The notes below the pieces were generated by a model that saw only the letters and a list, made by a program, of their open reading frames with translations, did no database searches and had not been told where the DNA came from. A stretch of 64,000 nt of DNA, from NCBI RefSeq assembly GCF_000003605.2, contig NW_003145510.1:1-64000 (forward strand). The letters are read 5' to 3'. The stretch is from Saccoglossus kowalevskii. Its lineage: Eukaryota; Hemichordata; Enteropneusta; Harrimaniidae. Shown here piece after piece: positions 62-16,600 of the stretch (the stretch's first letter is position 1; every line of letters starts with the position of its first letter). Both the position numbers and the translations under genes were made by a program.

Positions 62-794
62 TAAACACATTTTTATACATTTTTATACATTGTTAGACAA
101 TATTATCGATAATATCGGAGAAAAACGAACAGTTGAAATAGTTGCCCAGACAGACCTGTCTAACTTAGACATTTTTAGACCTTTTTAGACATTGTTAGAC
201 GATATTATCGATAATATCGGAGAAAAACGAACTGTCCCAATAGTTGCTCAGACAGACCTGTCTAACTTAGATATTTTTAGACTTTTTTAGACATTGTTAG
301 ACGATATTATCGATAATATCGGAGAAAAACGAACGGTTGCAATAGTTGCCCAGACAGACCTGTCTAACTTAGACATTTTTAGACTTTTTTAGACATTGTT
401 AGACGATATTATAGATAATATCGGAGAAAAACAAACTGTCGCAATTGTTGCCCAGACAGACCTGTCTTACTTAGACATTTTTAGACATTGTTAGACAATA
501 TTATCGATAATATAGGAAAAAAACGAACAGTTGCAATAGTTGCCCAGACAGACCTGTCTAACTTAGACATTTTTAGACTTTTTTTAGACATCGTTAGACG
601 ATATTATCGATAATATCGGAGAAAAACGAACTGTCACAATAGTTGCCCAGACAGACCTGTCTAACTTAGACATTTTTTAGACATTGTTAGACGATATTAT
701 CGATAATATCGGAGAAAAACCAACTGTCGCAATAGTTGCCCAGACAGACCTGTCTAACTTAGACATTTTTAGACTTTTTTAGACGTTGTTAGAC
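62..794 (+). repeat. Divergent edge monomers of the array
   Basis: A partial monomer (62-98) in which TAGAC units read TATAC is followed by seven full monomers starting at 99, 201, 303, 405, 497, 600 and 693. Their variable segment carries forms not seen, or rarely seen, in the interior: cagttgaaatag, cggttgcaatag, tgtcgcaattg, cagttgcaatag and tgtcacaatag. The palindrome is also altered in several (first base A at 99 and 497; an internal C-to-A change in the monomer at 405). From 795 onward the interior classes take over. Divergent terminal monomers are expected at the edge of an array homogenised by unequal exchange, so this looks like a true array boundary. Confidence 0.85.
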
Positions 795-12060: not shown

Positions 12061-13074
12061 TCGATAATATCGGAGAAAAACGAACTGTCCCCATAGTTGA
12101 CCAGACAGACCTGTCTAACTTAGACATTTTTAGACTTTTTTAGACATTGTTAGACGATATTATCGATAATATCGAAGAAAAACGAAATGTCCCAATAGTT
12201 GTCCAGACAGACCTGTCTAATTTCGACATTTTTAGACTTTTTTAGACATCGTTAGACGATATTATCGATAATATCGTAGAAAAACGAACAGCCTCAATAG
12301 TTACCCAGACAGACCTGTCTAACTTAGACATTTTGTAGACTTTTTTAGACATTGTTAGACGATATTATCGATAATATCTGAGAAAAACGAACTGTCCCCA
12401 TAGTTGCCCAGACAGACCTGTCTAACTTACACATTTTTAGACTTTTTTAGACATTTTTAGACGATATTATCGATAATATCGGAGAAAAACGAACTGTCCC
12501 AATTGTTGTCCAGACAGACCTGTCTAACTTAGATATTTTTAGACTTTTTTAGACATTTTTAGACGATATTATCGATAATATCGGAGAAAAACGAACTGTC
12601 GCGATAGTTGCCCAGACAAACCTGTCTAACTTAGACATTTTTAAACTTTTTTAGACATTTTTAGACGATATTATCGATAATATCTGAGAAAAACGAACTG
12701 TCCCCATAGTTGCCCAGACAGACCTGTCTAACTTAGACATTTTTAGACTTTTTTAGACATTGTTAGACGATATTATCGATAATATCGGAGAAAAACGAAC
12801 TGTCCCCATAGTTGCCCAGACAAACCAGTCTAACATAGACATTTTTAGACGTTTTTAGACATTGTTAGACGATATTATTGATAATATCGGAGAAAAACGA
12901 ACTGTCCCAATAGTTGTCCAGACAGACCTGTCTAACTTAGACATTTTTAGACTTTTTTTAGACATTTTTAGACGATATTATCGATAATATCGGAGAAAAA
13001 CGAACTGTCCCAATAGTTGCCCAGACAGACCTGTCTAATTTCGACATTTTTAGACTTTTTTAGACATTGTTAGA

Positions 13075-13094
13075 CGATATTATCGATAATATCG
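13075..13094. other. Core palindrome, example copy (20 bp perfect)
   Basis: CGATATTATCGATAATATCG is its own reverse complement. It is present once per monomer, so several hundred times in the window, with only scattered exceptions. The centre is TATCGATA, identical to the Drosophila DRE octamer bound by DREF; the flanking CGATA pentamers match the BEAF-32 core motif. Each 9-bp half is itself GATA-W-TATC. What is seen is the symmetry and conservation. Binding by any protein is inference and depends on the organism. Cruciform extrusion is another possibility. Confidence 0.9.
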
Positions 13095-13124
13095 GAGAAA
13101 AACGAACTGTCCCCATAGTTGCCC

Positions 13125-13148
13125 AGACAGACCTGTCTAACTTAGACA
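13125..13148. other. Overlapping AGAC/GTCT inverted repeats, example copy
   Basis: AGACAG (13125-13130), a 2-bp spacer and CTGTCT (13133-13138) form one inverted repeat. TGTCTAA (13134-13140), one base and TTAGACA (13142-13148) form a second that shares TGTCT with the first. The two hairpins are therefore mutually exclusive. GTCTAAC can also pair with the GTTAGAC that precedes each core palindrome. Class C (taatttcgaca) and class E (tagcttagaca) weaken or alter the second hairpin. Confidence 0.8.
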
Positions 13149-13177
13149 TTTTTAGACTTTTTTAGACATTGTTAGAC
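13145..13177 (+). repeat. Three 10-bp subrepeats (gac + T-rich heptamer), example copy
   Basis: The units gacattttta, gactttttta and gacattgtta follow each other exactly 10 bp apart and are closed by a fourth gac. T5-T6 tracts at 10-bp spacing lie on one face of the helix, the classic arrangement for intrinsically curved DNA. Across the array this block gains or loses single T residues (9-12 bp units) and sometimes a whole unit, producing the 92-bp monomers. Confidence 0.9.
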
Positions 13178-13279
13178 GATATTATCGATAATATCGGAGA
13201 AAACCGAACTGTCCCCATAGTTGACCAGACAGACCTGTCTAACTTAGACATTTTTAGACTTTTTTCGACATTTTTAGAC

Positions 13280-13371
13280 GATATTATCGATAATATCGGA
13301 GAAAAACGAACTGTCCCAAAAGTTGTCCAGACAGACCTGTCTAACTTAGACTTTTTTAGACATCGTTAGAC
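13280..13371 (+). repeat. Representative class D monomer (92 bp)
   Basis: It is recognised by CCCAAAAG (or CCCAATAG), GTTGTCC and CTTAGACTTTTTTAGACATCG. It is exactly one 10-bp unit shorter than class A, because only two of the three T-rich units are kept. A subclass has TTACTTAGAC in place of TAACTTAGAC. D is almost always followed by class E, a strong ordered pair across the window. Confidence 0.85.
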
Positions 13372-13474
13372 GATATTATCGATAATATCGTAGAAAAACG
13401 AACTGTCTCAATAGTTACCCAGACAGACCTGTCTAGCTTAGACATTTTTTAGACTTTTTTAGACATTGTTAGAC
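13372..13474 (+). repeat. Representative class E monomer (103 bp)
   Basis: It is recognised by CGTAG after the palindrome, CTCAATAG, GTTACCC and TAGCTTAGAC. The T after CG extends the perfect palindrome from 20 to 22 bp, because it pairs with the A before CG on the left. An extra T gives 103 bp. Subclasses have TTTTTTTGACATTG or AATATTTACCC. Class E typically follows D and precedes F. Confidence 0.85.
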
Positions 13475-13678
13475 GATATTATCGATAATATCTGAGAAAA
13501 ACGAACTGTCCCCATAGTTGCCCAGACAGACCTGTCTAACTTACACATTTTTAGACTTTTTTAGACATTTTTAGACGATATTATCGATAATATCGGAGAA
13601 AAACGAACTGTCCCAATTGTTGTCCAGACAGACCTGTCTAACTTAGACATTTTTAGACTTTTTTAGACATTTTTAGAC

Positions 13679-13696
13679 GATAATATCGATAATATC
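13679..13696 (+). other. Core palindrome altered in the left arm only
   Basis: GATAATATCGATAATATC is the reciprocal single-arm change. It is also present at 35217 and 37863, always in the class G monomer with CTGTGTAAC, which shows that these three copies share descent. Confidence 0.9.
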
Positions 13697-16600
13697 GGAG
13701 AAAAACGAACTGTCGCGATAGTTGCCCAGACAAACCTGTGTAACTTAGACATTTTTAAACTTTTTTAGACATTTTTAGACGATATTATCGATAATATCTG
13801 AGAAAAACGAACTGTCCCCATAGTTGCCCAGACAGACCTGTCTAACTTAGACATTTTTAGACTTTTTTAGACATTGTTAGACGATATTATCGATAATATC
13901 GGAGAAAAACGAACTGTCCCCATAGTTGCCCAGACAAACCTGTCTAACTTAGACATTTTAGACTTTTTAGACGATATTATCGATAATATCGAAGAAAAAC
14001 GAACTGTCCCCATAGTTGCCCAGACAGACCTGTCTAACTTAGACATTTTTAGACTTTTTTAGACATTTTGAGACGATATTATCGATAATATCGGAGAAAA
14101 ACGAACTGTCCGCATAGTTGCCCAGACAGACCTGTCTAACTTAGACATTTTTAGACTTTTTTAGACATTGTTAGACGATATTATCGATAATATCGGAGAA
14201 AACCGAACTGTCCCCATAGTTGACCAGACAGACCTGTCTAACTTAGACATTTTTAGACTTTTTTAGACATTTTTAGACGATATTATCGATAATATCGGAG
14301 AAAAACGAACTGTCCCAAAAGTTGTCCAGACAGACCTGTCTAACTTAGACATTTTTTAGACTTTTTTAGACGTTGTTAGACGATATTATCGATAATATCT
14401 GAGAAAAACGAACTGTCCCCATAGTTGCCCAGACAGACCTGTCTAACTTGGACATTTTTAGACTTTTTTAAACATTTTAGACGATATTATCGATAATATC
14501 GTAGAAAAACGAACTGTCGCGATAGTTGCCCAGACAAACCTGTTTAACTTAGACATTTTTAGACTTTTTTAGACATTGTTAGACGATATTATCGATAATA
14601 TCGGAGAAAAACGAACTGTCCCCATAGTTGACCAGACAAACCTGTCTAACTTAGACATTTTTAGACTTTTTAGACATTGTTAGACGATATTATCGATAAT
14701 ATCGAAGAAAAACGAAATGTCCCAATAGTTGTCCAGACAGACCTGTCTAATTTCGACATTTTTAGACTTTTTTAGACATTGTTAGACGATATTATCGATA
14801 ATATCGGAGAAAAACGAACTGTCCTCATAGTTGCCCAGACAGACCTGTCTAACTTAGACATTTTTAGACTTTTTTAGACATTGTTAGACGATATTATCGA
14901 TAATATCGGAGAAAAACGAACTGTCCCCATAGTTGACCAGACAGACCTGTCTAACTTAGACATTTTTAGACTTTTTTAGACATTTTTAGACGATATTATC
15001 GATAATATCGGAGAAAAACGAACTGTCCCAAAAGTTGTCCAGACAGACCTGTCTAACTTAGACTTTTTTAGACATCGTTAGACGATATTATCGATAATAT
15101 CGTAGAAAAACGAACTGTCTCAATAGTTACCCAGACAGACCTGTCTAATTTCGACATTTTTAGACTTTTTTAGACATTGTTAGACGATATTATCGATAAT
15201 ATCTGAGAAAAACGAACTGTCCCCATAGTTGCCCAGACAGACCTGTCTAACTTAGACATTTTTAGACTTTTTTTAGAAATTTTTAGACGATATTATCGAT
15301 AATATCGGAGAAAAACTAACTGTCCCAATTGTTGTCCAGACAGACCTGTCTAACTTAGACATTTTTAGACTTTTTTAGACATTTTTAGACGATATTATCG
15401 ATAATATCGGAGAAAAACGAACTGTCGCGATAGTTGCCCAGACAAACTTGTCTAACTTAGACATTTTTTAGACTTTTTTAGACATTGTTAGACGATATTA
15501 TCGATAATATCGGAGAAAAACGAACTGTCCCCATAGTTGACCAGACAGACCTGTCTAACTTAGACATTTTTAGACTTTTTTAGACATTGTTAGACGATAT
15601 TATCGACAATATCGAAGAAAAACGAAATGTCCCAATAGTTGTCCAGACAGACCTGTCTAATTTCGACATTTTTAGACTTTTTTAGACATCGTTAGACGAT
15701 ATTATCGATAATATCGTAGAAAAACGAACAGCCTCAATAGTTACCCAGACAGACCTGTCTAACTTAGACATTTTGTAGACTTTTTTAGACATTGTTAGAC
15801 GATATTATCGATAATATCTGAGAAAAACGAACTGTCCCCATAGTTGCCCAGACAGACCTGTCTAACTTACACATTTTTAGACTTTTTTAGACATTTTTAG
15901 ACGATATTATCGATAATATCGGAGAAAAACGAACTGTCCCAATTGTTGTCCAGACAGACCTGTCTAACTTAGATATTTTTAGACTTTTTTAAACATTTTT
16001 AGACGATATTATCGATAATATCGGAGAAAAACGAACTGTCGCGATAGTTGCCCAGACAAACCTGTCTAACTTAGACATTTTTAGACTTTTTTAGACATTG
16101 TTAGACGATATTATCGATAATATCGAAGAAAAACGAAATGTCCCAATAGTTGTCCAGACAGACCTGTCTAATTTCGACATTTTTAGACTTTTTTAGACAT
16201 CGTTAGACGATATTATCGATAATATCGTAGAAAAACGAACAGCCTCAATAGTTACCCAGACAGACCTGTCTAACTTAGACATTTTGTAGACTTTTTTAGA
16301 CATTGTTAGACGATATTATCGATAATATCTGAGAAAAACGAACTGTCCCCATAGTTGCCCAGACAGACCTGTCTAACTTACACATTTTTAGACTTTTTTA
16401 GACATTTTTAGACGATATTATCGATAATATCGGAGAAAAACGAACTGTCCCAATTGTTGTCCAGACAGACCTGTCTAACTTAGATATTTTTAGACTTTTT
16501 TAGACATTTTTAGACGATATTATCGATAATATCGGAGAAAAACGAACTGTCGCGATAGTTGCCCAGACAAACCTGTCTAACTTAGACATTTTTAAACTTT

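Follow-up and report, generated by a model that had tools for sequence, protein, structure and literature searches.

A palindrome repeated throughout a long satellite array shares its half-motif with both ends of a small DNA transposon and may derive from a transposase-recognition motif

A satellite in which nearly every monomer carries the same palindrome raises the question of what has kept that palindrome uniform, and whether any protein binds it or ever did. The window analyzed here, the whole 64,000-bp stretch at the start of contig C3635 (in a genome of 572 Mb and 4830 contigs), is occupied by such a satellite. Tandem Repeats Finder (TRF) and cyclic alignment delineated a head-to-tail array on the forward strand (67–64,000) with a period of about 102 bp and about 635 monomers, and this array runs on through the last 723 bp (L005) to the contig end at 64,723 bp. 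The monomers are mainly 101–103 or 92 bp long, the shorter ones having one fewer 10-bp unit in a T-rich segment. In the 102-bp monomer at 13,073–13,174 (forward strand, alignment columns 1–102), this segment occupies 13,142–13,174 and shows an internal 10-bp periodicity of TTAGACATTT units (TRF period-10 rows). Gaps present in more than 2% of monomers are confined to the T-tract segment (gap columns 70–86 and 99), as are the main insertion sites. The phasing of T-tracts at about 10 bp, observed at 13,142–13,174 and in most monomers, may allow DNA bending.

The array has no regular higher-order repeat: differences between monomers are nearly independent of lag, and the order of classes is irregular. 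CpG is not depleted in it (observed/expected 1.43), the window contains no open frame of at least 100 codons, and the portion scanned against Rfam (12,900–13,700) gave no match at gathering score. The pre-array contig end (1–66; the TRF array begins at 67) was matched to nothing and, on reading, does not resemble the left end of the transposon described below; it includes a CTGTCTGGG stretch that agrees, in reverse complement, with CCCAGACAG of the monomer. A phage origin was rejected, as a pattern of 34 specified letters had no exact match in viral contigs, and so was a bacterial or archaeal origin, a pattern of 24 specified letters having no exact match in bacterial and archaeal contigs. Text searches of the literature found no paper for TTATCGATAATATCG and a single match, to unrelated aptamer work, for GAAGGCGCGACA; among the matches listed for '102 bp' combined with satellite terms there was no '102-bp' satellite.

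Columns 3–22 of the monomer at 13,073–13,174, read directly, form the perfect 20-bp palindrome CGATATTATCGATAATATCG (13,075–13,094), which consists of the 11-bp half-motif CGATATTATCG and its reverse complement CGATAATATCG with the central CG in common. When the 102-bp consensus was shuffled 3000 times, one shuffle contained a palindrome as long. The central octamer TATCGATA is found 625 times in the window and the 18-bp form 585 times, mostly at a spacing of 101–103 or 92 bp; when 634 monomers were aligned with affine gaps, 621 proved to carry an unaltered octamer, 584 an unaltered 18-bp form, and 477 an unaltered 20-bp form. The original prediction of several hundred sites about 102 bp apart, with the octamer central in nearly every monomer, is thus confirmed. 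Its description of the palindrome as near-invariant over 18 to 22 bp is accurate for the 18-bp form but not for the 22-bp form, which is present in 96 of the 634 monomers. The symmetry of the 20-bp form is not strictly kept, since the right base of its outer pair (column 22) is altered in 107 monomers and the left base (column 3) in two. The palindrome is real and was rightly located, while its special status was somewhat overstated.

The conservation figures come from the same affine-gap alignment of 634 monomers; an earlier linear-gap alignment had scattered the 10-bp deletion. For the 18-bp form the substitution frequency is 0.0039, and for columns 24–37, 51–66, 67–102, and 38–50 it is 0.0062, 0.0115, 0.0387, and 0.1241, respectively. 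Columns 53–66 hold a second dyad, AGACAG-AC-CTGTCT (13,125–13,138, read directly), which is seen in most monomers and is well conserved yet less uniform than the palindrome. Among the 102 circular windows of 18 bp, the 18-bp form ranks fourth, the three better windows all overlap the palindrome, and the best window outside it has a substitution frequency of 0.0071. The expectation that this segment is kept more than the rest therefore holds insofar as rates inside and outside differ and the palindrome is the least diverged stretch of the window array, but the margin is modest. Singletons, a proxy for new mutations, number 7 over the 18 palindrome columns and 42 over the 84 outside columns. Variants in more than 10 copies account for none of the 16 alleles inside the palindrome, whereas beyond it they make up 33 of 131 (Fisher p = 0.023; six copy-number cut-offs were tried, and the remaining five gave p = 0.09 to 0.79). 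In a rank test over the non-independent columns of the linear-gap alignment, the p values were 0.001 (substitution frequency) and 0.13 (rare alleles).

The second array, on contig C1252 (32,157 bp, 297 monomers aligned), holds 283 copies of the 18-bp palindrome and has 72 monomer types in common with the window array (of 177 and 255 types, respectively). Its monomers were cut at intact octamers, hence the octamer columns were left out of the comparison; the remaining palindrome columns have a substitution frequency of 0.0081, versus 0.0041 in columns 24–37 and 0.0147 in columns 51–66. The palindrome is thus more uniform than the neighboring columns 24–37 in the window array but less so in C1252, and, judged from the arrays alone, the indication of selection on it is weak. 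An explanation without any binding role, past or present, has to be weighed here: the palindrome would be simply a part of a transposon-derived founder monomer, made uniform by homogenization among a few classes. We consider this possible, though doubtful. It agrees with the near-uniformity of most columns, diversity being concentrated at 24 diagnostic or indel columns (linear-gap alignment), with a near-equal input of singletons inside and outside the palindrome, and with the lack of a conservation excess over columns 24–37 in C1252; the evidence against it comes from copies outside the long arrays.

A search of the 572-Mb genome found 1191 copies of the 18-bp form, compared with 0 for the reversed-letter control, and among the matches listed some copies sit in short arrays inside long contigs. 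Six such loci (L021–L026) share their outer sequence: all of them have the left end, four also have the right end, and in the other two, one of which runs into N, the right end was not recognized. Three of the six are complete elements with perfect 8-bp duplications, 418 bp (ATTTAAGC), 1124 bp (TAAATTTT), and 650 bp (GAAAAGAG) long. The left tip reads CATGAAGGCGCGACAATG and the right tip, read inward, GAGGAAGGCGCGACATTG. As the first and third bases of the tips differ (CATGAAGGCGCGACA on the left versus GAGGAAGGCGCGACA on the right), the element was not assigned to a superfamily.

To choose loci independently of the palindrome, we searched the genome with the tip GAAGGCGCGACAWTG, which is found at 38 places (reversed-letter control 0). 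The element set comprises 34 loci, namely L021–L026 and 28 further tip-chosen ones. Both ends were scored as present in 19 of them: the duplication matches at all eight bases in seven loci, at seven bases in one, and at zero to six bases in ten, some of which are probably truncated or wrongly paired, and one locus had no right flank for scoring. The seven elements with 8/8 duplications are 216, 325, 418, 629, 650, 1124, and 2002 bp long. The shortest (L044) contains about one repeat, which is under the score cut-off of the monomer search, and the longest (L063) has 12 monomer matches. Terminal inverted repeats and 8-bp target-site duplications are thus present, as in cut-and-paste DNA transposons, and the repeat is found both in these end-defined dispersed elements and in long arrays (64 kb and 32 kb). 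The transposon is apparently non-autonomous; the ATG-started frames in its two longest copies (L051 and L063) do not exceed 56 codons.

Several loci differ from this common layout. In L041, L043, and L046 (contigs C1299, C1730, and C2110) the 15-bp tip is common and the interiors are largely different; a shared transposase may mobilize these elements, and L041 has just behind its tip a hairpin-like inverted repeat that proved imperfect when computed. Four other copies, L039, L047, L054, and L059 (contigs C168, C2112, C2892, and C3467), have a common flank at the right-type tip (83–97% over 30 bases) and are duplicated with their surroundings or lie inside another repeat. In L022 and L025 an inverted partial monomer stands opposite a direct one, a foldback-like layout.

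Examination of the 38 tip-defined ends revealed that 25 of them have the half-motif (GATAATTATCG / GATATTATCG) starting at a distance of 36 bases from the tip: as GATAATTATCG at 10 of the 15 left-type ends, and at 15 of the 23 right-type ends (14 GATATTATCG, 1 GATAATTATCG). With the common-flank loci merged, it is found at 22 of 35 distinct ends (left 10/15, right 12/20); because the copies share ancestry, the constant spacing effectively counts as a single observation for each side. Both strands of 21,214 bp of flanking DNA contain no match. Six of the 13 ends lacking the exact half-motif keep TATCG, and some of the 13 belong to elements that have only the tip in common. The bases between tip and motif are mostly different at the left and right ends, yet the spacing is equal. 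The right end reads TTAGAC-GATAATATCGGA, which is the monomer minus the left half of the palindrome; similarly, read outward, it gives TTAGACGATAATATCGGATAACG, the monomer's TTAGACGATATTATCGATAATATCGGA minus that same left half, and its TTAGACGATAATATCGGA resembles part of the monomer. The internal repeat and the terminal domain of the element therefore have sequence in common.

The occurrence of the half-motif at an equal distance from both tips supports the palindrome as a past or present protein-binding motif, and it argues against homogenization as the whole explanation. Together, the spacing and the repetition would plausibly fit a transposase-binding site, although a longer inverted repeat with no part in binding could have left the fixed spacing behind. 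The protein-binding role put forward in the original prediction is thus plausible, on the ground of the element ends; the argument from selection within the array is weak.

The dispersed copies also allow conservation to be assessed outside the long arrays. In 106 monomers from 21 of the 28 tip-chosen loci (the other seven have none above the alignment cut-off), the substitution frequency is 0.033 in the palindrome columns versus 0.058 in columns 24–75. The ratio of 0.55 (bootstrap interval 0.30–0.90 by locus, 0.26–0.92 over 18 merged loci) means that the palindrome changes about half as fast, which again speaks against homogenization alone. Among the 101 dispersed monomers spanning the palindrome, the 18-bp form is intact in 51 and TATCGATA in 77, and 13 have gaps in the palindrome, mostly in its left half (8–10 gaps per column at columns 4–11, 0–2 at columns 12–21). 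An 18-column window from column 41, with a frequency of 0.029, is slightly better conserved, so that these copies have two conserved blocks, the palindrome being one. The left arm of the second dyad falls within this best-conserved window. Judged from the dispersed copies, the indication of selection on the palindrome is moderate.

The original prediction linked the palindrome to the binding sites of DREF and BEAF-32. In this reading a host BED protein of either type would bind the array, which would act as an insulator or a sink. The presence of TATCGATA, which we take to be the DREF octamer, in 621 of 634 monomers is in line with such binding, and so are the counts of the pentamers in the window, 1298 of CGATA and 1144 of TATCG. 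However, the genome contains TTAGGG telomere-type repeats, the type searched for, and contig C4632 ends in them; they make an arthropod unlikely and point away from insects, and BEAF-32 is not known outside Drosophila. In addition, the motif also belongs to a mobile element. We therefore set aside the insulator part of the prediction and regard binding of the array by a host DREF- or BEAF-like protein as most unlikely. Several TTAGGG blocks also occur within contig C3217 (5892–10,280), where they are possibly interstitial or subtelomeric.

The palindrome and the second dyad might instead act through a hairpin or cruciform, aiding amplification or centromere function. The predicted fold of the single-stranded monomer, in which the palindrome forms a hairpin, has an energy of −10.7 kcal/mol, versus a shuffle mean of −4.3 (sd 1.9), and none of 200 shuffles was as low. 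A conserved structure would leave paired changes in its arms, whereas over the ten pairs of the palindrome 158 changes are one-sided and two are two-sided, one of these two being complementary. Comparison with the consensus of the CENP-B box gave at best 6 of 9 fixed positions, which is at shuffle level, 1363 of 2000 shuffles equaling or beating it; the CENP-B box was thus rejected. Action through DNA structure appears very unlikely.

Comparison with known systems supplies precedents for a passage from transposon to satellite. Satellite DTC84 of a clam is reportedly derived from an element carrying tandem repeats. A close parallel is the foldback transposon Tetris of Drosophila virilis, whose internal repeats have a stretch in common with the outer terminal domain and have expanded into the TIR-220 satellite, and for which a transposase-binding role was suggested (PMC4079207). 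As described there, Tetris is, like our element, a DNA transposon without coding capacity, complete copies of which have 8–9 bp target-site duplications, and its internal tandem repeats likewise share a terminal stretch and expand into satellite arrays. In contrast to Tetris, the complete elements found here are small (216–2002 bp), the unit is 82–102 bp rather than about 220 bp long, and the shared stretch contains a half-palindrome. In Galileo, transposase binding to THAP sites was demonstrated by footprinting (PMC3688188); the site there lies tens of base pairs from the tip (about 70 bp), and more sites lie in internal tandem repeats, much as the motif is placed in our element, for which, unlike Galileo, binding is inferred.

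The BED zinc fingers of the hAT transposase Hermes bind repeats in the subterminal region, a pair of which makes up a quasi-palindrome bound by two BED domains (PMC10368747). Our element resembles Hermes in its short subterminal motifs, and the BED domain type takes its name from BEAF and DREF; the Hermes motif AAGT and the Hermes tips differ from those seen here, and the accessible part of that report contains no mention of a satellite. Satellites grown from tandem-repeat MITEs and similar elements include CvA/HindIII and BIV160 of bivalves and miDNA4 of Xenopus (PMC9659126). In these, too, arrays come from repeats inside non-autonomous elements, but they are other families, likened to ours by description.

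Taken with the element ends, these data lead us to favor, with limited confidence, the view that the palindrome is the amplified transposase-recognition motif of an apparently non-autonomous transposon that has grown into a satellite. The transposase of the element would have bound the motif, probably via a zinc-finger domain. The inner repeats would have arisen by inward duplications of the subterminal region, and additional copies of the motif may have helped recognition. Unequal exchange could then have expanded some arrays to tens of kilobases, in which the sequence would be kept mostly by homogenization from a few founder classes, any further constraint being at most weak. The direction from element to satellite is suggested by the shared terminal sequence and by precedent, and is unproven.

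A point against the recognition role is that the analysis revealed neither a transposase that goes with these tips nor an autonomous copy. Two extended candidates for such a copy were considered, one of which has no frame of at least 120 codons and the other is partly N. The hAT dimerization domain has 34 matches in the genome; the exact tip was present at none of the 8 of these 34 loci scanned for tips, and one of the hAT-domain loci (L037) has a single tip-like match with two mismatches. The profile of the P-element transposase (PF12017) had no match in the genome, though its controls also gave none.

The array edge was considered as a possible trace of the element. All of the first seven monomers (96–791, forward strand) show the two states that are commonest in the elements, A at column 42 and C at column 50; the array as a whole, too, has both at high frequency (0.42 and 0.51, respectively). 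The distances of these seven monomers from the nearest element monomer are 0.014–0.043, compared with interior means of 0.024–0.031; overall, the edge lies no nearer to the elements than the interior does, and the idea of a transposon-like edge was rejected. The 102-bp monomer type with the extra T6 unit is already found at 4 of the 34 element loci, which speaks for the favored view.

The long arrays might act as a decoy that titrates the transposase, or a domesticated host derivative of it, and thereby restrains the parent family. The assembled 18-bp palindromes available for such titration number at least 868 (585 in the window and 283 in C1252). In that case the satellite would owe part of its maintenance to acting as a self-limiting sink for the very element from which it arose and which it controls. 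DREF-type proteins have BED fingers like those of hAT transposases, and because of this likeness the resemblance of the motif to the DREF octamer could reflect family resemblance and not chance. We consider the decoy role unlikely.

Satellites that arose from transposons have been described for many organisms (PMC9659126, PMC12628747); the point of interest here is that several stages of repeat expansion are found in one genome, whose copies go from about one repeat, through a few and about a dozen, up to hundreds. The uniform motif of the satellite can be traced to a motif equally spaced from both ends of a transposon. This suggests a general idea that can be tested in other repeat families, namely that uniform motifs in satellites may be fossil or active transposase-binding sites and not regulatory sites of the host.
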